From: Gammaproteobacteria bacterium
GTDB taxonomy: Bacteria; Pseudomonadota; Gammaproteobacteria; GCA-001735895
Length of the DNA stretch: 32,469 bases
Direction of reading: 5' to 3'
Assembly: GCA_024224415.1 (NCBI GenBank)
Contig: JAAENK010000111.1
Location: forward strand, 1 to 32,469
A program made the position numbers and the translations under genes. This document shows positions 8,231 to 24,058 of the stretch, in pieces. Positions within the stretch are counted from its first letter, which is position 1; every line of letters begins with the position of its first letter. A model generated the notes under the pieces. The model was not told where the DNA came from. It saw only the letters and a program-made list of their open reading frames with translations, and made no database searches.

Positions 8231-9937
8231 ATGCCAGATTCAGCACTAGACCCAGAATCCAGAACGCAGCAACTCACAGGCGCTCAACTATTGATTAGAT
8301 TGCTTGAGCGCCAGGGCGTGACGCATATTGCCGGTATTCCGGGTGGCGCCAATCTGCCGATGTACGATGCTTTAACCTCTTCCAGTATCAAGCATGTGCT
8401 TGCCAGGCATGAACAGGGGGCAGGATTTATAGCTCAGGGTATGGCACGAGCTAGCGGTGCAGCGCAGGTATGTTTTGCCAGCTCTGGACCAGGTGCCAGC
8501 AACCTGATAACCGCGGTTGCCGACGCAAAACTGGATTCAGTACCACTGATAGCTATAACCGGGCAGGTGCCGCAGGCGATGATCGGTACCGATGCATTTC
8601 AGGAAATTGACACCTTCGGTTTAATGCTACCAATCACCAAACACAACTGGATGGTTCGCTCAGCGCAGGCATTACTCGAAGTCATCCCGCAAGCGTTTGA
8701 GATAGCGCTATCTGATCGACCCGGCCCAGTTTCAATTGATATTCCCAAGGATGTACAGAATGAGTTAATCACCGTCGATACACTGCCAGAACCGGGTAAA
8801 GCGTTGCCATGTCCGGTTCTTGAAGAAGCACATGTGGAGGCAATGCTAACCAGAATATGGCAGGCGCAACGTCCGATTTTGATGATTGGCGGGGGCATTA
8901 TTTATGCTGATGCATCTCAGGCATTGATTGAATTTGCCGAAAAGCTTGATATCCCGGTTGTGCAAACTTTCATGGGTCTTGGCGTTTTACCATCGGATCA
9001 TCCGCTGTCACTCGGTATGCTGGGTATGCATGGTGCGCGTTATACGAATCTGGTACTGGAAGAATGTGACCTGGTGGTTGGACTGGGTGTTCGCTTTGAT
9101 GACAGGGCTACTGGCAGGGTTGCCGAGTTTTGTCCAAAAGCGACGATTATTCATGTTGATATCGATCATAGTGAGATCGACAAGATTATTCCCTCAGCGC
9201 TGGCAATTCGGGCCGATGTTGGTGAGGTACTACATACGGCGAATTTTATGCTCGAAGCAAATGTACGGCCAGTCTGGCGTAACCGAGTCGATCAACTCAA
9301 ACAATCATACCCATTGATTCTGGATGGTGAGAATGAATTATTCCGCCCCTATGGTGCGATTAAAACCATTGCCTCGCTGCTCGATGACTCGGTCAATATC
9401 ACCACCGATGTAGGACAGCATCAAATGTGGGTGGCACAGGCTTATCCAATTAACCGGCCCCGGCAGTGGGCCAGTTCAGGTGGTTTGGGAACCATGGGTT
9501 TCGGTCTGCCAGCGGCGATTGGCATGGCGCTAGCGCAACCAGAGCGTAAAGTTATCTGCTTTTCGGGTGATGGCAGTTTGATGATGAACTTGCAGGAACT
9601 GGCGACAGCAGCAGAGCAGGACCTTGATATCAAAGTTGTTATTCTCAATAACCAGCACCTGGGCCTGGTTCGCCAGCAGCAAACGCTGTTTTATGAGAGC
9701 AACCTCTCTGCGGTAAAATTTCATGCAAAGGTCGATTTCGCCAAAGCTGCCGAAGCCATGGGATTGAAAGGCATCGATCTTGGAATAGTTGATAGCCCGC
9801 TCGATGAACTCAAAAACGCCTTGTTACAACCTGGGCCCTGGGTTATCAATCTACCGATTTGTGAAACCGAAATGGTTTATCCGATGGTTGCTCCTGGCGG
9901 AGCCAATCGAGATATGATCTGCGGAGCAAGCGCATGA
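8231..9937 (+). CDS. ilvB: Acetolactate synthase large subunit
   Basis: The 568-residue thiamine diphosphate and FAD enzyme condenses two pyruvates to acetolactate (valine and leucine branch), or pyruvate with 2-ketobutyrate (isoleucine branch). The catalytic glutamate is Glu61 in RHEQGAG. The central FAD domain spans roughly 190-350, and the thiamine-binding motif runs from GDG (446-448) to ILNN about 27 residues later. The length fits IlvB. It is preceded by the attenuator and overlaps ilvN by four bases (ATGA, 9934-9937), so the subunits are co-translated. The 96-residue partner and the IvbL-like leader mark it as the IlvB type rather than IlvI or IlvG. Confidence 0.96.
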   Translation: MPDSALDPESRTQQLTGAQLLIRLLERQGVTHIAGIPGGANLPMYDALTSSSIKHVLARHEQGAGFIAQGMARASGAAQVCFASSGPGASNLITAVADAKLDSVPLIAITGQVPQAMIGTDAFQEIDTFGLMLPITKHNWMVRSAQALLEVIPQAFEIALSDRPGPVSIDIPKDVQNELITVDTLPEPGKALPCPVLEEAHVEAMLTRIWQAQRPILMIGGGIIYADASQALIEFAEKLDIPVVQTFMGLGVLPSDHPLSLGMLGMHGARYTNLVLEECDLVVGLGVRFDDRATGRVAEFCPKATIIHVDIDHSEIDKIIPSALAIRADVGEVLHTANFMLEANVRPVWRNRVDQLKQSYPLILDGENELFRPYGAIKTIASLLDDSVNITTDVGQHQMWVAQAYPINRPRQWASSGGLGTMGFGLPAAIGMALAQPERKVICFSGDGSLMMNLQELATAAEQDLDIKVVILNNQHLGLVRQQQTLFYESNLSAVKFHAKVDFAKAAEAMGLKGIDLGIVDSPLDELKNALLQPGPWVINLPICETEMVYPMVAPGGANRDMICGASA

Positions 9938-12077: not shown

Positions 12078-12941
12078 TCACCCATTCACACGAAAACGCG
12101 TCAACGCGATACCACTCAATATGACCGCCAGAGCAAACAGGCTGTTTAATTCAATTGGCTCCGACAATATGAGCGCACCGGAAAAGAATGCCACTACTGG
12201 AATCATATAATTGATTGTTGACAGAAAAGTCGGTCCTGCGCGTTCTATGACGGCAAATAAAATCATCGTGGCAATCGCAGTTGGCCCTATACCGAGCCAG
12301 AGCATCGCATTGATCGAACTCAAAGTTATTTGCGCATAATTCGACGTAGTTTGAAATAGCCAGATGGGCAGCATGATAATGCTGGCAGCAATCATGACCC
12401 CGGCAGCCCCTATTATCGGGCTGAAGTTTGGCAGTCGGCGTACCAGTATAGTGTTCACCGCGTAGCTGGTGGCGGCAATAAATATTGCGATGCCTCCCAA
12501 AACAGCCTGACCACCACCTTCGAATACAGGGCCCAACAGTATGATTATGCCGGTGATACCAAACATGAATCCTGTTATTTTGTAGCGGTTTAAATTCTCA
12601 CCTTCAACGAAATAGTGTGCTAGTAGCATGGTCATCAACGGCATGATCGCCATTATCATGCCTGCAACACCGGAGTTAACCGATAACTGCCCCCAGGTGA
12701 CCAGGAAAAATGGGAACACATTACCCATAGTTCCCATCACAAAAAAAGCCAGCCAGGCCTTGCGATTAAACGGTAAACGCCGTCCTTTGATATAGACAAT
12801 GCTGGTTAAAATAATAGCGGCAATTAAAACGCGAGCAAACACTACCGTCAGGGGATCGATCGATTCCACCGATATCGATATAAATACGAAGGATGTGCCC
12901 CAGACAGAGACCAGGCACATTAACAGGAACCAGTTAAACAA
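12078..12941 (-). CDS. DMT superfamily (EamA) transporter
   Basis: The 287-residue protein has about ten hydrophobic helices in two EamA repeats (residues 1-135 and 145-285). Family marks are VSVWGTSFVFI at the start, ARVLIAAIIL in helix 2 and GPTAIATMILFAVIE in the second half. It is the last gene of the carnitine-type operon, 17 bases after acetoacetyl-CoA synthetase. That position makes it a candidate carrier for a pathway substrate or product, or an exporter relieving build-up of one. DMT proteins carry many metabolites, so the cargo is unknown. Confidence 0.88.
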   Translation of the reverse strand: MFNWFLLMCLVSVWGTSFVFISISVESIDPLTVVFARVLIAAIILTSIVYIKGRRLPFNRKAWLAFFVMGTMGNVFPFFLVTWGQLSVNSGVAGMIMAIMPLMTMLLAHYFVEGENLNRYKITGFMFGITGIIILLGPVFEGGGQAVLGGIAIFIAATSYAVNTILVRRLPNFSPIIGAAGVMIAASIIMLPIWLFQTTSNYAQITLSSINAMLWLGIGPTAIATMILFAVIERAGPTFLSTINYMIPVVAFFSGALILSEPIELNSLFALAVILSGIALTRFRVNG

Positions 12942-12958: not shown

Positions 12959-14902
<1,944 letters not shown>

Positions 14903-15013: not shown

Positions 15014-15796
15014 TTACTTGCCTTTCCAGACTGGATCACGTTTCTCAGCAAACGCTTTAAAGCCCTCAAGTCCATCTTCGCTGCCGTATAACACATCTAC
15101 GGTTTCAAATTGGCGTCGGGTAATGCGATTTATAGCATCCTGGAAATTCATGCCTTCGGCTTCGCGAGCAACTTCTTTGATCGAAGCAAATACCAGTGGT
15201 GGCCCGGATTCGAGTTGTTCTGCAACTTCCCAGACGCGGTCGTGGAGTTTGTCAGCGGCATGAATTTCATTGACCAGTCCCCATCGATGCGCTTCTTCGG
15301 CATCCATCCAACGACCAGTGTAAAGCATATCCATAGCAATGTGATAAGGAATACGTTTCGGTAGCTTCAGTGTGGCTGCATCGGCGAGTGTACCGGCACG
15401 GATTTCAGGCAATGCAAACGTCGTATGTTCGGCTACATAAATCATATCTGCCGAGAGTGCTAACTCGAAACCACCACCAACAGCCATGCCATTGATTTCG
15501 GCAAGCACAGGTTTGTTGAGGTTGCGTAATTCCTGCAAACCAGCAAAACCACCAACGCCGTAGTCGCTATCGACTGCATCACCATCGGCGGCAGCCTTCA
15601 AATCCCATCCTGCTGAAAAGAATTTTTCACCTGCGGTTTTGATGATGGCTACCCGCAATGCGGAATCATCACGGAATTCCCTAAATATCTCTCCCATCTC
15701 ACGACTGGTAACCAGGTCGATGGCGTTTGCTTTGGGGCGGTCGAGAGTTACTTCGAAGATACCACCTACACGGTTGGTTTTTACAACATCAGACAT
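15014..15796 (-). CDS. caiD: Carnitinyl-CoA dehydratase (crotonobetainyl-CoA hydratase)
   Basis: The product is a 260-residue crotonase-fold protein with near-colinear similarity to E. coli CaiD. Shared segments include LDRPKANAID, GEKFFSAGWDLKAAA and GGFAGL, and both end in FAEKRDPVWKG. The two active-site glutamates fall at identical positions, Glu111 (GGGFELALS) and Glu131 (ALPEIRAG). It interconverts crotonobetainyl-CoA and carnitinyl-CoA. The loop after Glu131 reads GTLADAAT, where crotonases usually have a glycine-rich PGxGG or PDSGG. The ATG directly abuts the stop of the upstream synthetase gene, and GGAGG lies inside that gene. The CaiD call is stronger than a generic hydratase call. 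Confidence 0.9.
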   Translation of the reverse strand: MSDVVKTNRVGGIFEVTLDRPKANAIDLVTSREMGEIFREFRDDSALRVAIIKTAGEKFFSAGWDLKAAADGDAVDSDYGVGGFAGLQELRNLNKPVLAEINGMAVGGGFELALSADMIYVAEHTTFALPEIRAGTLADAATLKLPKRIPYHIAMDMLYTGRWMDAEEAHRWGLVNEIHAADKLHDRVWEVAEQLESGPPLVFASIKEVAREAEGMNFQDAINRITRRQFETVDVLYGSEDGLEGFKAFAEKRDPVWKGK

Positions 15797-17830
15797 TTAC
15801 TGATCCTCCAGGACGATGAGCGCATCGGCTGCGAATACACCTTCGCCAGCTGTGCATAATAATAACGGGTTAATATCGAGTTCAATTAACTTGCTGGCAT
15901 TGGCCATGGCATATTCCTGAATGGCGAGAATAGCCTCGACAGTGGCTGCAATATCGGCACTGGCTTTGCCACGAAAACCATTAAGTACAGGGGCAAGCTT
16001 TAGCTGCCTGATCGCTTGCTCGATATCATCGCGATCGGCAGGGATTAACAAGGTCTGGCTATCTTTCAAAATTTCAACCAGAATACCACCACTGCCTATG
16101 GTGAGCACCAGCCCAAACTGTGGGTCACGCGTAACACCAACCAGAAGCTCTGCAACGACACTATCGATCATTGTTTCACAATAGAGCTGATCGCTGAGCT
16201 TGAGTAATTCAGTTTCGGCCTGCTGCAACTGGATTGCATCCTGCAAATTCAGGCGTACCGCATTTTGTTCAGTTTTGTGCGCGATACCGAGAGCCTTAAG
16301 CACGACCGGAAACTCTGGTATGTCACCAGAAGGTAAGCGCCTTCCATGGGGAACCCTGACACCATATTCCGATAACCGTTGTTTGGCATCCGCCTCATCA
16401 AGTGTTACTCGTGCTTCTGAAACCTGCGGCAAATTTAGTACTGGTATTGCTGGTTCATGTTGCCAGGCGGCACCAATATCGGCGGCAATCTCAGTTGCCC
16501 TAAGGGCTTCGTCGAAGCCATAAAGTACGACAATCCCACGATCACGAAATGACTCGGTATAGTCTTCGGAGATATTCTCCGCCATGCCAACTACAAATGC
16601 GCCTTTGGCATTGTTTGCTTTTAATGCTGTATCAAAAGATTCAGCTGCGATCTGCCATTCCCAATCCTCGCAGCGCTGCCGGTGTGGGAAGTCGATAATG
16701 AGGTAATTCAAATCAAAACCATTGCCGACCATAGCAGAATAAGCGGCCGTCATGATTTCGCCTTTGCCCCAACAATACATATGATAATCGAGCGGATTGG
16801 CAACGGTTACCAATGGCCCAAGTACTGCCTCTACTGGCGCCTTTTGTGCGTCGCTTAAATCATCGAAATATACTTTCCGACCATCGGCAGCATCGGCAAT
16901 TATACTGGCCTCGCCACCCGAACAACTCATCGAAGAAATACGATAACCATCCAGTGCACCGTGTACATGTAGCAATTTTAGCGATTCCAGGAATTCAGGG
17001 ATAGAATCAGCCTGACCAAAGCCAATACGCTTGAGAAATGCACTGCTGATATTGTGTGAACCAGCCAATGAGGCTGTATGTGTCATCGCTGCAACTTGTG
17101 CATGCTGGCTTTTGCCAACCTTGAAAACGACAATAGGCTTTCTTAACTGTCGCGATTTTTCCGCCAGCTCTTCCATGGCTGTGATTGAGTCGAAACCTTC
17201 GACATACATGCCTAAAGCCGTAACACGAGGATCATCCAGAATACTGATGGCAATTGCAGCAGTACCAACAATGGCCTGGTTGCCGGCTGTCACCAGGTAG
17301 GCCAGTGGCAAACCGCGTTGTTGCATGGAAAAGTTGATCGCAATATTGGATGATTGCGCAATAATGGCAACTCCAGTCTGGTTCTCAGCTAGTCGCTTAC
17401 CGCCCTGCTGATCAGGCCAGAGCAAAGCGCCGTCGGCGTAGTTGATCAAACCGTAACAATTGGGACCGAGTACCGGCATATCCCCAGCGGCAGCAATCAG
17501 TTCTGCCTGTAACTCACCCCCGGTTTCATCGGCTTCAAGAAACCCCGACGCAAAGGAAATAGCACCACCACAACCTTTTTCGCATAACTGTCTAACTACC
17601 TCGATAGTCAAATGACGATTGACACCGATGAAAGCAGCGTCGGGGCTACCAGGTAGGTCAGCTACCGATGCAAAGGCCGGCAAGCCATCGACTTCGGTTT
17701 TAGTTGGATGTACTGGCCAGATTTCGCCTTCGTAGTTCATGAGCTGACATTGTTCGACCACACGGCTGGCCTCTAAACCGCCGATGGCTGCTATCGACGC
17801 TGGCCTTATTAATCTTTCCAGACCAGACAT
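15797..17830 (-). CDS. ADP-forming acyl-CoA synthetase (acetate-CoA ligase family)
   Basis: The 677-residue fusion resembles ADP-forming acetyl-CoA synthetases. An N-terminal CoA-binding Rossmann domain (1-130, with LGPNCYGL) is followed by the succinyl-CoA-ligase-like domains (about 150-440). These include MTHTASLAG with His251 at the position of the phosphorylated histidine. An ATP-grasp domain forms the C-terminus (about 465-677, FPVVLKALGIAHKTE). The family reaction is acid + CoA + ATP to acyl-CoA + ADP + phosphate, and is reversible. Its start overlaps the acyl-CoA dehydrogenase stop (TAATG). By context the acid may be gamma-butyrobetaine, crotonobetaine, carnitine or glycine betaine. 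It is not a lysine acetyltransferase of the Pat type, since no GNAT domain is present. Confidence 0.9.
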   Translation of the reverse strand: MSGLERLIRPASIAAIGGLEASRVVEQCQLMNYEGEIWPVHPTKTEVDGLPAFASVADLPGSPDAAFIGVNRHLTIEVVRQLCEKGCGGAISFASGFLEADETGGELQAELIAAAGDMPVLGPNCYGLINYADGALLWPDQQGGKRLAENQTGVAIIAQSSNIAINFSMQQRGLPLAYLVTAGNQAIVGTAAIAISILDDPRVTALGMYVEGFDSITAMEELAEKSRQLRKPIVVFKVGKSQHAQVAAMTHTASLAGSHNISSAFLKRIGFGQADSIPEFLESLKLLHVHGALDGYRISSMSCSGGEASIIADAADGRKVYFDDLSDAQKAPVEAVLGPLVTVANPLDYHMYCWGKGEIMTAAYSAMVGNGFDLNYLIIDFPHRQRCEDWEWQIAAESFDTALKANNAKGAFVVGMAENISEDYTESFRDRGIVVLYGFDEALRATEIAADIGAAWQHEPAIPVLNLPQVSEARVTLDEADAKQRLSEYGVRVPHGRRLPSGDIPEFPVVLKALGIAHKTEQNAVRLNLQDAIQLQQAETELLKLSDQLYCETMIDSVVAELLVGVTRDPQFGLVLTIGSGGILVEILKDSQTLLIPADRDDIEQAIRQLKLAPVLNGFRGKASADIAATVEAILAIQEYAMANASKLIELDINPLLLCTAGEGVFAADALIVLEDQ

Positions 17831-18990
17831 TAGCCACCCAACGGTCTAAGCAAATCACGCGAAATAATATGGCGCTGAATTTCAGAAGTTCCATCCCAGA
17901 TACGCTCTACACGCGCATCGCGCCAGAAACGCTCTAGCGGTAGTTCGTCCATCAAGCCCATGCCACCAAAAATCTGGATTGCTTCATCAGTTACGCGCGC
18001 AAGCATTTCGGTAGCGTAAAGTTTGGCGCTGGCAATTTCACGATTACACTCAATACCTTCGTCAAGTTTCCACGCTGCTGAAAGAGTTAACCACTCAGCG
18101 GCATCAATCTCGGTAATCATGTCGGCAAGCTTGAAAGACACACCCTGAAACTTGCCGATTTGTTGACCAAACTGTTTGCGCTCGGTGCAATAAGGTAGTG
18201 CGTATTCAAATGCACGACGTGCACGCCCAACGCTAGTAGCGGCAACGGTTAAGCGCGTGGCGTAAAGCCACTCGTTCATGACATCGAAACCACCGTGTAA
18301 TTCACCCAGAATCTGGCCTTCTGGCAGGCGGCAGTTGTCAAAATTCAAGATACAGTTTTTATATCCACGATGACTTACCGAGTTATACCCCGGACGAATC
18401 TCAAAACCAGGCATGCCACGATCAACCAGAAAGCAGGTGATTTTCTTCTTCTTGCCACGTGGTGTATCTTCTTCACCGGTAGCAATAAAAACAATAACAA
18501 AGTCGGCAATATTTGCATGACTGATAAAATGCTTACTGCCGTTAACAACCCAGTCGCTGCCATCCTGTTTTGCGTTACAACTCATGCCCCGTACATCAGA
18601 GCCAGCACCTGGTTCCGTCATTGCCAGCGCATCGAATTTTTCACCTTTAACAGCAGGGAATAAATACTTCTCCTGTTGCTCCTTATTAGAGGCTTGCAAG
18701 ATACCAGAAGGGCGACCAAAGAAAACCGCAAGAGCATTCGAGGCACGACCCAACTCACGTTCCAGCAGGGTAAAATCAAGATTATTTAAGCCGCCACCAC
18801 CAAACTCGTCGGAAATATTGGCAGCGAAATAGCCAGCTTCGAGACACTTGTCACGGATTTCAAGACCCAGCTCCATGGGTACTTCACCGCTGCGCTCGAC
18901 TTTTGCTTCGTGTGGGTATATTTCTTTTTCGACAAATGAACGTACAGTATCGACGATCATTTCCTGTTCAAAACTTAAACCAAAATGCAT
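17830..18990 (-). CDS. Acyl-CoA dehydrogenase, probably acting on gamma-butyrobetainyl-CoA
   Basis: The 386-residue FAD enzyme has the standard N-terminal helical, beta-sheet and C-terminal helical domains. The flavin-contact segment is TEPGAGSD (125-132), and the C-terminal signature is IQIFGGMGL with IWDGTSEIQRHI. The residue usually serving as catalytic base (Glu in YEGTS) is Asp366 here. The alternative base position used by isovaleryl-CoA dehydrogenase is not Glu either (YATRL). Between carnitine dehydrogenase and CaiD, the likely reaction is desaturation of gamma-butyrobetainyl-CoA to crotonobetainyl-CoA. It would pass electrons to ETF. Substrate assignment is inference from neighbours. 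It starts 13 bases after the dehydrogenase upstream. Confidence 0.9.
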   Translation of the reverse strand: MHFGLSFEQEMIVDTVRSFVEKEIYPHEAKVERSGEVPMELGLEIRDKCLEAGYFAANISDEFGGGGLNNLDFTLLERELGRASNALAVFFGRPSGILQASNKEQQEKYLFPAVKGEKFDALAMTEPGAGSDVRGMSCNAKQDGSDWVVNGSKHFISHANIADFVIVFIATGEEDTPRGKKKKITCFLVDRGMPGFEIRPGYNSVSHRGYKNCILNFDNCRLPEGQILGELHGGFDVMNEWLYATRLTVAATSVGRARRAFEYALPYCTERKQFGQQIGKFQGVSFKLADMITEIDAAEWLTLSAAWKLDEGIECNREIASAKLYATEMLARVTDEAIQIFGGMGLMDELPLERFWRDARVERIWDGTSEIQRHIISRDLLRPLGG

Positions 18991-19003: not shown

Positions 19004-19999
19004 TTAATCGTCGTTGGCTGCTTCTAGCAAGTGGCTTTCATACTTTCCTAATGCCTGTCCTGCACCCCAGTCATTGCCTTTCAACCCGTGCAGGATAGCG
19101 ATCAGGTTATCGTCACGAATACGTTCCATTTCGCGGATTGTCATATGACCGGATTGTTCGTCTGACTGCCCGGCTATAAGGTCTACTAGTTCATCAGTGA
19201 ATTCTGGTACATCCATGAGCCTGGTCCATGGCCATTTTAGGCAAGGACCAAATTGCGCCATGAAGTGCCGCATACCGGCTTCACCACCAGCAACACGATA
19301 GGTATCGAACACACCCATTTGCGCATAGCGTAAACCGAAGCCAAAGCGTACGGCATCATCGACATCCTGTGTTGTTGCAATACCGTCTTTCACCAACCAC
19401 AGGGACTCACGCCAGATGGCTTCGAGTAAACGGTCGGCAATAAAGGCTTCGATTTCTTTTTTGACATGCAAGGGGTGCATACCAACCGATGTGTAGATTT
19501 CTCTGGCACGGTTGATGGTATCCATCGATGTAGATTTACCGCCAACCAACTCAACCAGTGGCAACAGGTAAACAGGATTAAACGGATGTGCCACCAGCAA
19601 ACGTTCCGGGTTACTCATTTTAGCCTGTAGATCAGATGGCATGATTCCAGAAGTTGAGGAGGCAATTATTGCGTCGGTATCGGCAGACTGCTCTATTTCG
19701 GCATACACGGACTGTTTGATATCCAGTCTTTCTGGCACTGATTCGATGATGAGCTCGGCACCAGGCACAGCTGCCGCAATAGAGTCCTTAAAACTGATGC
19801 TACCTTCTTTTGCGCGTGGGGCTGATATCAGCTTGCCATAAGCGTAGCGGCTATTCTTTAAAACAGCTTCGACCTTTTCCATTGCATCTTCGGCAGGATC
19901 ATATATAGCAACATCAACGCCATTTTCGATTAAACGCGATACCCAACCTGCACCGATTACACCGCCGCCAATAACTGCGGCATATTTGATGATTGACAT
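19004..19999 (-). CDS. lcdH: L-carnitine dehydrogenase (3-hydroxyacyl-CoA dehydrogenase family)
   Basis: The product has 331 residues from the ATG at 19999. That start is chosen because GGAGT lies about 7 bases ahead and the Rossmann motif VIGGGVIGAGW then falls at residues 9-19; a longer frame reaches 20029. The NAD domain (1-190) has AHPFNPVYLLPLVELVGG, and the C-terminal dimer domain has DDAVRFGFGLRYAQMGVFDTYRVAGGEAG. These match the L-carnitine dehydrogenase branch, which oxidises L-carnitine to 3-dehydrocarnitine with NAD. Some homologues carry a fused thioesterase domain; this one ends without it. Position 10 bases after a BKACE gene strongly supports the carnitine assignment. Confidence 0.88.
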   Translation of the reverse strand: MSIIKYAAVIGGGVIGAGWVSRLIENGVDVAIYDPAEDAMEKVEAVLKNSRYAYGKLISAPRAKEGSISFKDSIAAAVPGAELIIESVPERLDIKQSVYAEIEQSADTDAIIASSTSGIMPSDLQAKMSNPERLLVAHPFNPVYLLPLVELVGGKSTSMDTINRAREIYTSVGMHPLHVKKEIEAFIADRLLEAIWRESLWLVKDGIATTQDVDDAVRFGFGLRYAQMGVFDTYRVAGGEAGMRHFMAQFGPCLKWPWTRLMDVPEFTDELVDLIAGQSDEQSGHMTIREMERIRDDNLIAILHGLKGNDWGAGQALGKYESHLLEAANDD

Positions 20000-20009
20000 T
20001 TCGTGACTC

Positions 20010-20927
20010 CTATCTGGCAACCGGTGCACGTTTCTGCAATTGCAGTTTTTCGCGTACTTCGGCTGGTGTCATCAAAGTTGCACCCATGTTGGTAACGATG
20101 GTTGCAGCTTTCTCGACGAGTTGCGCGTTTGTTGCGAGAACACCTTTTTCCAACCAGAGGTTGTCTTCAAGACCGACTCGTACGTTACCACCGGCAAGCA
20201 TGGCAGCAGCAACAAAAGACATTTCATTTCGTCCAATGGAAAATGCTGAAAATGTCCAGTCCTTCGGTGTGTTATTTACCATCGACATGAAGGTGTTCAA
20301 ATCATCGGGTGCTCCCCATGGAATACCCATACACATTTGAATCATCACAGGATCCTGGATGATGCCTTCCTCGACTAATTGTTTGGCAAACCAAAGATGA
20401 CCAGTTTCGAAAACCTCGATTTCCGGGCGCACACCCAGGTCGGTCATCATTTGCCCCATTGCACGAAGCATACCGGGAGTGTTGGTCATGACGTAATCGG
20501 CTTCGGCAAAATTCATCGTGCCGCAGTCCAGAGTACAAATCTCTGGCAGGCATTCCGCAACATGCGCGACGCGCTCGGTAGCACCGGCCATGTCAGTACC
20601 AGCTTCGTTTAATGGTAGTGGATTTTCTGCATCACCGAATACCAGGTCACCTCCCATGCCAGCCGTGAAATTCAATACCACGTCTGTTTCAGAATCACGA
20701 ATACGCTCAGTAACTTCGCGATAGAGTTCGATGCGACGACTAGGTTTGCCAGTATCAGGCTCGCGTACGTGACAATGTACGATGGCAGCTCCAGCTTTGG
20801 CGGCATCGATTGCGCTATTGGCAATTTGCTCTGGAGAGCGTGGCACATGTGGGGAGCGATCCTGGGTACCACCGGAGCCAGTAACGGCACAGGTGATGAA
20901 TGGTTTTTGATTGGCAGTTAAAGGCAT
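20010..20927 (-). CDS. Beta-keto acid cleavage enzyme (BKACE, DUF849), probable dehydrocarnitine cleavage
   Basis: The product has 305 residues from the ATG at 20927, which has GAGGAG just upstream; a longer frame to 20954 lacks support. BKACE enzymes are zinc-dependent TIM barrels that react a beta-keto acid with acetyl-CoA to give an acyl-CoA plus acetoacetate. The zinc ligands His51 and His53 (VHCHVRE) are present, as is Glu254 in VGLEDN. With dehydrocarnitine the products would be betainyl-CoA and acetoacetate. It is the first gene of the operon, next to L-carnitine dehydrogenase, with acetoacetyl-CoA synthetase downstream. Substrate is inferred from this context. Confidence 0.92.
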   Translation of the reverse strand: MPLTANQKPFITCAVTGSGGTQDRSPHVPRSPEQIANSAIDAAKAGAAIVHCHVREPDTGKPSRRIELYREVTERIRDSETDVVLNFTAGMGGDLVFGDAENPLPLNEAGTDMAGATERVAHVAECLPEICTLDCGTMNFAEADYVMTNTPGMLRAMGQMMTDLGVRPEIEVFETGHLWFAKQLVEEGIIQDPVMIQMCMGIPWGAPDDLNTFMSMVNNTPKDWTFSAFSIGRNEMSFVAAAMLAGGNVRVGLEDNLWLEKGVLATNAQLVEKAATIVTNMGATLMTPAEVREKLQLQKRAPVAR

Positions 20928-20958: not shown

Positions 20959-20987
20959 GTCATGGAAAAACAGGTTATGATTGTCAT
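20959..20987. promoter_or_regulatory. Direct TGTCAT repeat in the divergent control region
   Basis: TGTCAT occurs at 20959-20964 and again at 20982-20987, 23 bases apart start to start, about two helical turns. It lies in the short region between the BKACE start (20927) and the regulator start (21017). AraC-type regulators commonly bind direct repeats of this spacing. TTGTCA (20981-20986) could also be the -35 of a regulator promoter with TACAAA at 21004-21009. Both are inference. Confidence 0.3.
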
Positions 20988-21016
20988 TTCACGCAAAATA
21001 TTTTACAAATATCGAA

Positions 21017-21985
21017 ATGTCACTATTTTCAGTCAGTGAACAGAAGTTAAGAGTCTGCCTTTTAGTGTTACCTGAAACATCGATGATGTCGCTAGCTTCT
21101 ACGCTTGACCCAATGCGAGCAGCTAATCGCATTGCCAGTCGCGGTTTGTTCGAGTGGCAGCTGCTTACAATCGATGATCAGCCCGCAACGCTAACCTGCG
21201 GCATACCTGTTGCGCCACAGGGTAAGATTGACGCACATATCAGGGGCGATCTGCTATTTGTTATTGCCGGGTTTAATCAATACAAACACGTGAATCGGCA
21301 ACAAATAAAAATCATCAAACAATTATGCAGTCGATTCCAGGCAATCGGCGGTATTGAGGCTGGTAGCTGGTTGCTGGCACGCTGCGGCTTGCTCGATGGT
21401 AAGCAGGCCACCACGCACTGGGAAGACCAGGAAGAATTCTCTGTCCAGTTTCCACGTGTTGTTTTAAAACCTGATCGTTTTGTCATCGATGGCAAAATAT
21501 TCACTACCGGCGGAGCATCGCCAACCTTTGATCTTATGCTTTACCTGATCCGAACCCGCTATGGATATCCGCTCGCGCTCGAAGTTTCCAGTGCCTTTAT
21601 CTACGACGGCGTGCATAGTGCTACCGATACGCAGCCGCTCGTATCACTGGGTATGCTCGAAAACCATGAACCCCGTGTTGCCGCTGCAATTCAAATCATG
21701 GAGCAGCATATTGATGAAATCATAGCTATCACGGTCATTGCTGAAAAGCTCGATTTATCGACACGCATGCTGGAATACCTGTTCGCTCAGACACTTAATT
21801 TATCACCGGCCGCCTACTACCGTCGCCTGCGACTACAGACAGCACGCCGCATGGTGGTCGATACACGCTTGCGTTTGCAGGAGATCGCAATCCGAACCGG
21901 TTTTAATTCGCTATCATCTTTTTCGCGCCTGTTTCGGCAGTATTATCAACAGTCACCGGGGGAGTGTCGGCGGCAGGCTAGGTGA
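21017..21985 (+). CDS. GlxA/CdhR-type AraC transcription regulator
   Basis: The product has 322 residues from the ATG at 21017; a TTG at 20981 would add 12 residues. The N-terminal DJ-1/PfpI-like (GATase1) domain (about 10-180) includes IGGIEAGSWLLARCGLLDG and ATTHWED. The C-terminal AraC helix-turn-helix pair (about 225-320) has EKLDLSTRMLEYLF and IAIRTGFNSLSSFSRLFRQYY, ending QSPGECRR. This architecture is shared by GbdR, CdhR and ArgR, which respond to betaine, carnitine and arginine respectively. Divergent from the BKACE operon, it is very likely its activator and probably senses carnitine or a related quaternary amine. Confidence 0.9.
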   Translation: MSLFSVSEQKLRVCLLVLPETSMMSLASTLDPMRAANRIASRGLFEWQLLTIDDQPATLTCGIPVAPQGKIDAHIRGDLLFVIAGFNQYKHVNRQQIKIIKQLCSRFQAIGGIEAGSWLLARCGLLDGKQATTHWEDQEEFSVQFPRVVLKPDRFVIDGKIFTTGGASPTFDLMLYLIRTRYGYPLALEVSSAFIYDGVHSATDTQPLVSLGMLENHEPRVAAAIQIMEQHIDEIIAITVIAEKLDLSTRMLEYLFAQTLNLSPAAYYRRLRLQTARRMVVDTRLRLQEIAIRTGFNSLSSFSRLFRQYYQQSPGECRRQAR

Positions 21986-22030: not shown

Positions 22031-24058
22031 TCACATCACCGAACATAAACGCAATGCATCGAACATGGCTGCTGCAACATTTCGGCTGGATAGTGCATCT
22101 CCGATTCGATGGAGGCTAAATCCCTGATCATTGTCGGGTTGTGGTTCACCGTTTAGCAGGGCAGGGATGTCGGTGATGCCATTGTTGCATGACTGTTCGC
22201 GTAGTGCGTGGAAGATATCGTCGAACGGAATGGTGCCGTGCTCGACGATGAGTTGATCGGTTTGTAGAATCATTTGTTCTGCGGTCAAATCACTGACGAA
22301 ACAAACTGACAGTTTGTCTGCCTGTTTTGTTACCTCCTTCAAACGGTACTCAAATAATGGTCGCAACTTGAGTGCAGCTAGCTGGCGTCGCCAGGTGACT
22401 GCTTCGCCGTAATCAAGTTCTGCGGCGGGTTGAGCGTCGAGCATAACCAGGTCGACCTTGCTCCCGGCATTTGTACAGAACTCGGTTACGGTTAAAGCCG
22501 GATGACGTCCGGTTCCGTCATAGACAATGATATCGGCTTTTGGTTTTTCGCTACCAGATAAAACATCCCAGACTGAGCTGCAGTGTTCCGAGCCAGGGAT
22601 CCAGTCGAGATCGGGCAGCCCACCCGTGGCAATCACTACGATATCCGGCTGTAGCGCGAGCACGTCTTTCGCTTCGGCCAGGATGTTGTAGTTAATGTTG
22701 ACGTCGAGCCTTGCCAGCTCCTGCAGACGCCAGTCGGTAATACCAACGATATCCTTACGCCAGCTTGCAGCGGAGGCCATTCTAAGTTGTCCGCCTAGCT
22801 GATCGGTAGCTTCGAATAGCGTTACCCGATGACCTCGCTCGGCGAGGATTCTGGCTGCCTCCAGTCCGGCTGGGCCGCCGCCCACTACCACAGCCTTACG
22901 TCCCGACCTGGAAGATTTCCGGATAAGCTGTGGCCAATCGGTTTCTCGACCACTGGCCGCATTGTGTACGCAGGTCGGTCGTGCCTCTCCCATACAGTGA
23001 GTGATGCCCAGACAGGGGCGAATGCGTGCTTCCTCGCCACTTTGAATTTTGTTGACTATCTGCGGGTCGGCAATATGTGCACGGGTCATTGCCACCATAT
23101 CGAGCAAACCCTCACGGATCGCATAGCGCGCAGTGGCGAGATCAGTAATCCGCGCCGCGTGAAAAACCGGTAATTTGACGGCACGTTTGAATTTGCCCGC
23201 CACTTCAAGCCAGGGCGCGATAGGAGACGCCATGTCAGGCATGCAGTCGGTTACCATGCTGATCATGGTATCGAGACGGCCATAATTGGCATTGAAAAAA
23301 TCGACTAATCCCGAGTCCTGAAAAATGTTGGCGGCCTCGACACATTCGTCGAAATTCATACCATCGTCCATTGCCTCGTCGATTGGAAAGCGCATGCCAA
23401 CGATATACTCATCGCCCACCTGCCTGCGAATTTCTTCGTGAACCATCAAACCAAAACGACAACGATTTTGTAGCGAGCCACCAAATTCATCGCGGCGCAA
23501 GTTGGTCGAAGGTGATAGAAACTGGCCGATCAAGTGACCACCGACCATGGTTTCAAGACCATCCAGCCCACCCTGTCGTGCACGCAATGCGGCCTGTCCG
23601 AAAGCCCTGACCACACGGTTGATGTCATCCCGATCCATTTCTCTGGGGAAAGCACGGTGCAGGGTTTCGCGCAGGGGAGACGGTCCAATTGCCGGTAACC
23701 AGTTTTGGGTGTTGGTTTCGGCGCGTCGACCCAGATGCGTCAGCTGAATCATAATCGCCGCACCAGCATCGTGTACACGTTGTGAAATAGACTCCAGGTA
23801 AGGCAGAATCGCATCGGATGACATATTTACCTGGGTAACCGGCCAAATCGAGTCGGCAGCGACGAAGGCCGAGCCACCAAACATAGTCAACGCCAGGCCA
23901 CCCCGGGCCTTCTCTTCGTGATAGCGTTGATATGCTTCGCCCGGCATACCGTTCGTCTCTTCCAATCCACAATGATGGCTGGTGGACATGATGCGGTTAC
24001 GCAAACGCAGGTGTTTGATTTGCAATGGTTGCAGCAGAGGGTCTTGTGAAGCGCTCAT
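22031..24058 (-). CDS. DgcA/StcD-like FMN/FAD oxidoreductase, putative N-demethylase
   Basis: The product has 675 residues. The N-terminal old-yellow-enzyme TIM barrel (1-345) includes MIQLTHLGRR and FLSPSTNLRRDEFGGS. A Cys-containing linker follows (Cys349, 355, 363), then an NAD/FAD domain beginning at GGGPAG (393-398). Similarity runs end to end with dimethylglycine demethylase subunit DgcA, including YHEEKARGGLAL, MTRAHIADP and the ending RIGDALSSRNVAAAMFDALR. Relatives oxidatively remove N-methyl groups from dimethylglycine or N-methylproline. Convergent with the carnitine-type regulator, it could act on methylamines released from glycine betaine. The electron-transfer partner DgcB is not in the window. 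The exact substrate is unknown; a dienoyl-CoA reductase is less likely. Confidence 0.87.
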   Translation of the reverse strand: MSASQDPLLQPLQIKHLRLRNRIMSTSHHCGLEETNGMPGEAYQRYHEEKARGGLALTMFGGSAFVAADSIWPVTQVNMSSDAILPYLESISQRVHDAGAAIMIQLTHLGRRAETNTQNWLPAIGPSPLRETLHRAFPREMDRDDINRVVRAFGQAALRARQGGLDGLETMVGGHLIGQFLSPSTNLRRDEFGGSLQNRCRFGLMVHEEIRRQVGDEYIVGMRFPIDEAMDDGMNFDECVEAANIFQDSGLVDFFNANYGRLDTMISMVTDCMPDMASPIAPWLEVAGKFKRAVKLPVFHAARITDLATARYAIREGLLDMVAMTRAHIADPQIVNKIQSGEEARIRPCLGITHCMGEARPTCVHNAASGRETDWPQLIRKSSRSGRKAVVVGGGPAGLEAARILAERGHRVTLFEATDQLGGQLRMASAASWRKDIVGITDWRLQELARLDVNINYNILAEAKDVLALQPDIVVIATGGLPDLDWIPGSEHCSSVWDVLSGSEKPKADIIVYDGTGRHPALTVTEFCTNAGSKVDLVMLDAQPAAELDYGEAVTWRRQLAALKLRPLFEYRLKEVTKQADKLSVCFVSDLTAEQMILQTDQLIVEHGTIPFDDIFHALREQSCNNGITDIPALLNGEPQPDNDQGFSLHRIGDALSSRNVAAAMFDALRLCSVM

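Follow-up and report, generated by a model that had tools for sequence, protein, structure and literature searches.

The gene at positions 15797–17830 on the minus strand of the analysed stretch of DNA (32,469 nucleotides in total, referred to here as the window) was found to encode a member of the ADP-forming acyl-CoA synthetase (ACD) superfamily. It is very likely, judging from sequence comparisons, a gamma-butyrobetaine:CoA ligase like BcoAB of Sinorhizobium, activating gamma-butyrobetaine at the head of a carnitine pathway. The initial annotation had left two directions open for this enzyme, and we infer that it is the activating one, which is supported by the gene neighbourhoods of its relatives, by its coexistence with thioesterases, by pocket residues resembling those of DddX and by the gamma-butyrobetaine:CoA ligase published for Sinorhizobium. 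The finding is an ordinary one, namely a pathway described before in soil bacteria which is found here in a new genus and with its thioesterase probably relocated. It offers a likely function for proteins listed in databases as "acetate--CoA ligase family protein", and leads to the prediction that gamma-butyrobetaine is used in a genus of Gammaproteobacteria from sediment and worm symbioses. It also raises the question of whether, in this genus, a fused carnitine thioesterase domain has become a gene of its own.

The ligase gene and its product

The open reading frame is uninterrupted, with 677 codons and an ATG start, and its product matches three Pfam families well above their cut-offs: CoA_binding_2 (PF13380, 52.2 bits, cut-off 22.8), Succ_CoA_lig (PF13607, 92.6 bits, cut-off 27.4) and ATP-grasp_5 (PF13549, 121.4 bits, cut-off 27.6). 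Neither the AMP-binding domain PF00501 (CaiC type) nor PF02515 (CaiB class III CoA-transferase) was matched in the Pfam scan of this protein. Its assignment to the ACD superfamily is based on these domains and on two histidines. The first, His251 (codon 17078–17080, minus strand), is the phosphohistidine of the swinging loop and corresponds to DddX His292; it is present in all 88 aligned homologue rows and in DddX. The second, His518 (codon 16277–16279, minus strand), lies in an AHKT motif of the ATP-grasp half and is present in 87 of the 88 rows, with a gap in the remaining one, and again in DddX. The description of the protein in the initial annotation as a complete ADP-forming synthetase with His251 in place is thus borne out. 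The reaction of the ACD superfamily is reversible, and for this reason the direction of the ligase is not fixed by its sequence.

The carnitine operon in the window

The ligase gene is part of a tight run of seven genes on the minus strand. The run begins with a beta-keto acid cleavage enzyme (BKACE; 20010–20927, PF05853, 337 bits), which is proposed to convert dehydrocarnitine and acetyl-CoA to betainyl-CoA and acetoacetate, and continues with an L-carnitine dehydrogenase (19004–19999). The start of the latter was placed at the ATG at 19999, which has a GGAG site, within a 341-residue reading frame that is open to 20029 from a GTG. The dehydrogenase matches only positions 1–333 of the 495 positions of model PRK07531 and has no 4HBT_2 domain, which confirms the earlier observation that it lacks the fused thioesterase of some homologues. 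It is followed by an acyl-CoA dehydrogenase (17830–18990; PF02771, PF02770, PF00441), proposed to be a gamma-butyrobetainyl-CoA dehydrogenase, which overlaps the start of the ligase gene by one base. Directly 3' of the ligase, with a gap of 0 bases, lies a CaiD-like crotonobetainyl-CoA hydratase (15014–15796), for which the best NCBIfam model is PRK03580 (318.6 bits, under the cut-off of 500). After a gap of 111 bases there is an AMP-forming acetoacetate--CoA ligase (acetoacetyl-CoA synthetase; 12959–14902, PRK03584, 959.5 bits, cut-off 639), which would use up acetoacetate, and the last gene encodes an EamA-family transporter (12078–12941, PF00892). These last two genes are additions to the run which are found in most loci of the genus.

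Divergent from the operon, in a position that is conserved, is a GbdR-like GlxA/AraC regulator (20981–21985, plus strand; 231.6 bits with the GbdR model, under its cut-off of 480). The BKACE is approximately 72–77% and the carnitine dehydrogenase 54–62% identical to their counterparts in alphaproteobacterial carnitine operons. Scans for promoters and terminators gave numbers at chance level. Adjoining the regulator, at 22031–24058, is a gene for a 675-residue NADH:flavin oxidoreductase/pyridine nucleotide oxidoreductase, a relative of which (69% identity) is found beside the operon at another locus (L039); it is possibly a demethylase for a downstream betaine.

Gene neighbourhoods of related ligases

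A scan of bacterial genomes and a search of the genus identified the operon in other members of the genus, including the Olavius algarvensis Gamma 3 endosymbiont. Outside the genus, the order regulator (GlxA), BKACE, carnitine dehydrogenase with fused thioesterase, acyl-CoA dehydrogenase, ligase and CaiD was found in Rhizobium leguminosarum WSM1325 and R. johnstonii 3841, and identically, with the fused thioesterase, in Neorhizobium sp. NCHU2750 and Sinorhizobium sp. M103. The R. leguminosarum carnitine dehydrogenase has 496 residues and carries a C-terminal 4HBT_2 domain. As these rhizobial operons have the ligase in addition to the fused thioesterase, the former is not a substitute for the latter. 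Other loci contain fewer genes: in Ruegeria conchae only the regulator, acyl-CoA dehydrogenase, ligase and CaiD are present, and in Paracoccus methylovorus the trio of acyl-CoA dehydrogenase, ligase and CaiD and the BKACE-dehydrogenase set form two separate units.

A member of the ligase family (at least 36% identity) was present in 79 of the 86 loci examined, and the tally was made on these 79 (omitting L051, L069, L075, L076, L100, L146 and L179). An acyl-CoA dehydrogenase was found near the ligase in 73 of them, CaiD in 68 and both in 66, compared with 52 for carnitine dehydrogenase, 49 for BKACE and 21 for the fused thioesterase; as the loci were sampled by similarity to the window protein, with close relatives included, these counts are not independent. 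Seventeen loci, four of them on short stretches, have acyl-CoA dehydrogenase and CaiD with no carnitine dehydrogenase or BKACE in view. Seven genomes of this kind were searched, and each has, at another place, a long reading frame for a thioesterase of the carnitine-dehydrogenase type; the four distant loci that were fetched each had a fused dehydrogenase-thioesterase beside BKACE. The ligase therefore goes together with the two enzymes of the steps that follow activation, rather than with the enzyme that forms betainyl-CoA. It is a regular partner in this type of operon in many Proteobacteria, and the view that its presence would be an unusual replacement was not upheld. In 7 of 16 loci of the genus the cluster is flanked by genes for ETF (none is near the cluster in the window), which fits an oxidation of acyl-CoA.

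Two further gene sets were observed during this comparison. In six loci of genus relatives (L070–L074 and L076) the gene types of the operon occur a second time, as a parallel set that comprises a ligase, an acyl-CoA dehydrogenase, a CaiD-like hydratase, a carnitine-dehydrogenase-like protein and, at loci where it is in view, a BKACE. These genes are approximately 34–55% identical to those of the window, and L070 has additional nitrilase-like and luciferase-like genes; this set probably follows the same logic with another substrate. The genome of the window itself has a second ADP-forming ligase (36% identity) on contig C294 (L068, 8727–18980). On one side it is flanked by genes for molybdenum-hydroxylase subunits, CofC and a 788-residue radical SAM protein of the CofG/CofH type, and on the opposite side by a luciferase-like gene, so that coenzyme F420 genes are present in a gammaproteobacterial assembly.

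Location of the thioesterase and direction of the ligase

The initial annotation had noted that no thioesterase, CaiB-type CoA-transferase or CaiC-type ligase was present. This holds for the window's contig, where profile searches gave no match to PF02515, 4HBT or the carnitine-type thioesterase. It does not hold for the genome, in which a profile search of the contigs gave 8 hits to PF02515 and 9 to 4HBT. A dedicated thioesterase elsewhere in the genome was also looked for, and the start of a carnitine-type gene was found by direct search at the end of contig C192 (9072 bases), where positions 8964–9071 encode the first ~36 residues at 75–77% identity and adjoin the same ABC-2 transporter pair as in other members of the genus. 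As the assembly is 87% complete and the match lies at a contig end, the gene looks cut rather than absent. The earlier claim that only the ligase could handle the betaine-side CoA ester was not confirmed.

With a profile built from 19 fused domains (threshold 1e-5), a carnitine-type thioesterase was matched in 35 of the 36 genomes searched, the exception being G213. A free-standing relative was present in each of the 8 alphaproteobacterial genomes whose operons lack the thioesterase and in all 13 relatives from the genus, where the gene is conserved beside the ABC-2 transporter pair. The only NCBIfam match of the stand-alone protein of the genus is to the thioesterase half of carnitine 3-dehydrogenase (2.4e-28, under the full-length cut-off), and it has a YTVETHxRxL-like stretch in common with the fused domains. 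In a protein search of the other 10 genus relatives, the thioesterase was found at 69–75% identity in seven and cut at a contig start in one (G022); only in G007 and G023, which are 62 and 66% complete, was it absent or matched weakly. Among 369 genomes sampled from the class, relatives with at least 60% identity occur, the window's own genome aside, in four (G004, G011, G116 and G237), all of them among the 18 with a match to the ligase. This co-occurrence has a Fisher p of 3e-6 with the own genome left out, although it involves two genera only and is p 0.0018 when counted by genus. Two facts count against the link to carnitine: a fused thioesterase (L134) is present in G116 as well, and the stand-alone gene lies outside the operon.

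In a quick tree, the ligase of the window falls into a clade of 25 rows (support 99) made up of the genus and certain alphaproteobacteria, no member of which has a fused thioesterase in view (the tree omits the truncated L048, L140 and L163, as well as L050, L051, L068, L075, L077, L100, L145, L146 and L179). This suggests that the fused thioesterase may have been lost once in this clade, and the stand-alone gene of the genus probably represents its relocation from a fused domain to a free gene.

Several other candidates for the release of the acids were considered. A thioesterase of 145 residues on contig C234 of the same genome (profile E-value 2.5e-19) appears, by eye, to be without the YTVETHxRxL-like stretch and is less likely. 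A CoA-transferase was rejected since, despite the 8 PF02515 hits, none of 11 genomes had a protein over the cut-off of the CaiB model. Three alphaproteobacterial operons (L147, L149 and L152) have a gene between BKACE and carnitine dehydrogenase, which was found to encode a PhnZ-like HD-domain protein in the copy scanned (L149), and none of the gap genes in L153, L154, L133, L166, L168, L171 and L172 was recognised as a thioesterase on reading their sequences. Separately, contig C205 of the window's genome (L069, 740–3244) encodes an 834-residue protein with two PF02515 matches, a layout which we take to be that of DddD; it lies near a peptide/nickel-type (family 5) ABC transporter resembling those beside carnitine operons.

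The ligase could alternatively be a two-way recycler of CoA, which charges gamma-butyrobetaine and discharges carnitinyl-CoA with recovery of ATP, achieving by two half reactions the task of CaiB in E. coli. The operon has no CaiB-type gene, 0 of 11 genomes gave a hit over the CaiB cut-off, and G213, a 93% complete genome, has BKACE and carnitine dehydrogenase (L133) with no carnitine-type thioesterase at 1e-5. However, such a thioesterase is present in every other genome searched, and this role is very unlikely. There is a still slimmer chance that in the thioesterase-less lineages, above all G213, the ligase is the physiological releaser of both carnitinyl-CoA and betainyl-CoA. If this were true, one enzyme would both spend and recover ATP, and the route from gamma-butyrobetaine to glycine betaine would run without a hydrolysed thioester. 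If release without a thioesterase exists, G213 is the genome in which it should be sought first.

It is extremely unlikely that the ligase of a thioesterase-less operon runs in the acid-forming direction, making glycine betaine and ATP from betainyl-CoA, as the initial annotation had suggested. The reversibility of the superfamily reaction, the absence of a thioesterase domain from the carnitine dehydrogenase and of any thioesterase from the window, and the position of the ligase in a well-supported clade in which no locus has the fused domain would be in keeping with it. The proposal was premised, however, on the lack of a thioesterase, a lack which is confined to the window, given the stand-alone genes in the genus and in the alphaproteobacterial genomes and the gene start in the own genome. 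In addition, orthologues stand together with the fused thioesterase in 21 loci, and at the 17 loci with no BKACE in view no betainyl-CoA would be made from the locus. ATP recovery as the main role was rejected on these two grounds, the occurrence of the ligase with fused thioesterases and its occurrence apart from BKACE.

Structure and putative substrate pocket

Of the solved structures, DddX (7cm9) is matched in sequence over nearly the whole length of the ligase in one stretch, at 22–23% identity; two archaeal hydroxyacid ligases gave better E-values, but these match in two pieces, and other matches are partial. The predicted model of the ligase (13 sequences) has a mean pLDDT of 78.5 and a pTM of 0.74. 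Its best fold match is again DddX (Foldseek E-value 5.2e-45, TM 0.73; VIA-align Z 27.3, 639 residues aligned, rmsd 9.9), the high rmsd probably reflecting the placement of the domains. Such a likeness of fold does not by itself show function.

For DddX, docking and mutants led to the proposal that the sulfonium group is held by Trp391 (by cation-pi interaction) and Phe435, with Tyr181 close by (excerpts of PMC8163506). In the ligase, Trp354 (codon 16769–16771, minus strand) stands at the position of Trp391 and is a tryptophan in 79 of 80 family rows and none of 8 distant ACD rows, while Trp138 (codon 17417–17419, minus strand), at the position of Tyr181, is conserved in 80 of 80 and again in none of the 8. 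Trp392 (codon 16655–16657, minus strand) is paired with Phe435 in the pairwise alignment, the MAFFT alignment having a gap beside this position; here tryptophan is found in 67 and tyrosine in 7 of the 80 rows, and tryptophan in 2 of the 8. The tryptophan count omits DddX and eight rows (L051, L075, L077, L100, L146 and three PatZ-like). As the rows were chosen by similarity, conservation is expected, and the evidence lies in the correspondence with residues proposed independently for DddX. This pattern fits a quaternary-ammonium acid as the putative substrate. The pocket is not readable from the model itself because of low confidence at residues 124–144, with pLDDT below 50 around Trp138. Given the kinship with DddX, there may be a group of onium-acid ligases that have an aromatic pocket in common and among which one member evolved into a DMSP lyase.

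It is exceedingly improbable that the protein acts instead on a different onium acid, such as DMSP or some other betaine, whether as a lyase like DddX or as a paralogue specialised for another compound. In favour of this, DddX is the nearest solved structure, Asp389 aligns pairwise with its proposed lyase base Glu432, and the second gene set in genus relatives means that the substrates of the two sets probably differ. Position 389, however, which lies in a gappy region, is occupied by Ala, Pro, Val, Thr or Ser in a good number of relatives, and the partners are of the carnitine type at the identities given above.

Proposed reaction and pathway

For gamma-butyrobetaine as the substrate, the order of steps that we infer would begin with phosphorylation of His251 by ATP, after which the swinging loop would bring the phosphate to gamma-butyrobetaine, with its trimethylammonium head against Trp138, Trp354 and probably Trp392. 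Displacement of the phosphate by CoA would then yield gamma-butyrobetainyl-CoA, ADP and Pi. The adjacent acyl-CoA dehydrogenase would oxidise the product to crotonobetainyl-CoA, which the CaiD-like hydratase would convert to L-carnitinyl-CoA. Release of carnitine, and later of glycine betaine, is assigned to the putative 4HBT_2 thioesterase, fused in many relatives and free-standing in the genus. Carnitine dehydrogenase and BKACE would convert carnitine to betainyl-CoA and acetoacetate, the latter being recovered by the acetoacetyl-CoA synthetase. A route from gamma-butyrobetaine to glycine betaine with five enzymes and seven steps was reportedly described by Bazire et al. in 2019 (J Bacteriol 201:e00772-18). 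Such a route would fit the present gene set exactly.

Comparison with known systems

The closest known system is that of S. meliloti, in which BcoAB, a "gamma-bb:CoA ligase" whose plasmid came from A. Perret, converts ATP, CoA and gamma-butyrobetaine to gamma-butyrobetainyl-CoA (excerpts of PMC8364193), and SM2011_c01638 both carries out the oxidation of carnitine and forms glycine betaine from betainyl-CoA (excerpts of PMC12482172, citing Bazire et al., 2019). BcoAB would belong to the present ligase family, judging from its operon position, its AB name and the sole recognised ligase gene in the operon of Sinorhizobium sp. M103. The proposed reaction is the same, the ligase of M103 is 51% identical to that of the window, and in both operons the genes for acyl-CoA dehydrogenase and CaiD adjoin those for carnitine dehydrogenase and BKACE. 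The genus of the window differs in having a carnitine dehydrogenase without fused thioesterase and in the additional acetoacetyl-CoA synthetase and EamA transporter. Compared with the fused protein (PRK07531), the dehydrogenase of the window has 341 residues and no C-terminal 4HBT_2, against 496 residues in R. leguminosarum (L096). An ADP-forming carnitine or gamma-butyrobetaine ligase was not found in titles or abstracts in the literature search. Carnitine synthesis by CoA thioesterification, dehydrogenation and hydration has been reported for the Rhizobium-like strain HK4 (excerpts of PMC3546705).

DddX, the ATP-dependent DMSP lyase, shares the whole-length fold, the phosphohistidine and the aromatic residues at the Trp391 and Tyr181 positions (excerpts of PMC8163506), but its low identity to the ligase, its proposed base Glu432, the position of which varies in the ligase family, and the carnitine rather than DMSP neighbours of the latter set the two apart. 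The CaiC/CaiB/CaiD/CaiA system of E. coli performs the same kind of CoA-level chemistry on the same betaines with a hydratase of the CaiD kind (excerpts of PMC2131755), whereas the window has an ADP-forming ligase in place of the AMP-forming CaiC and the CoA-transferase CaiB, and its acyl-CoA dehydrogenase is proposed to be oxidative. Anaerobic use of gamma-butyrobetaine by Emergencia timonensis likewise involves CoA-level metabolism, a flavin acyl-CoA dehydrogenase and a thioesterase; unlike the window, the bbu cluster, as described in the excerpts of PMC8364193, has class III CoA-transferases and no ADP-forming ligase.
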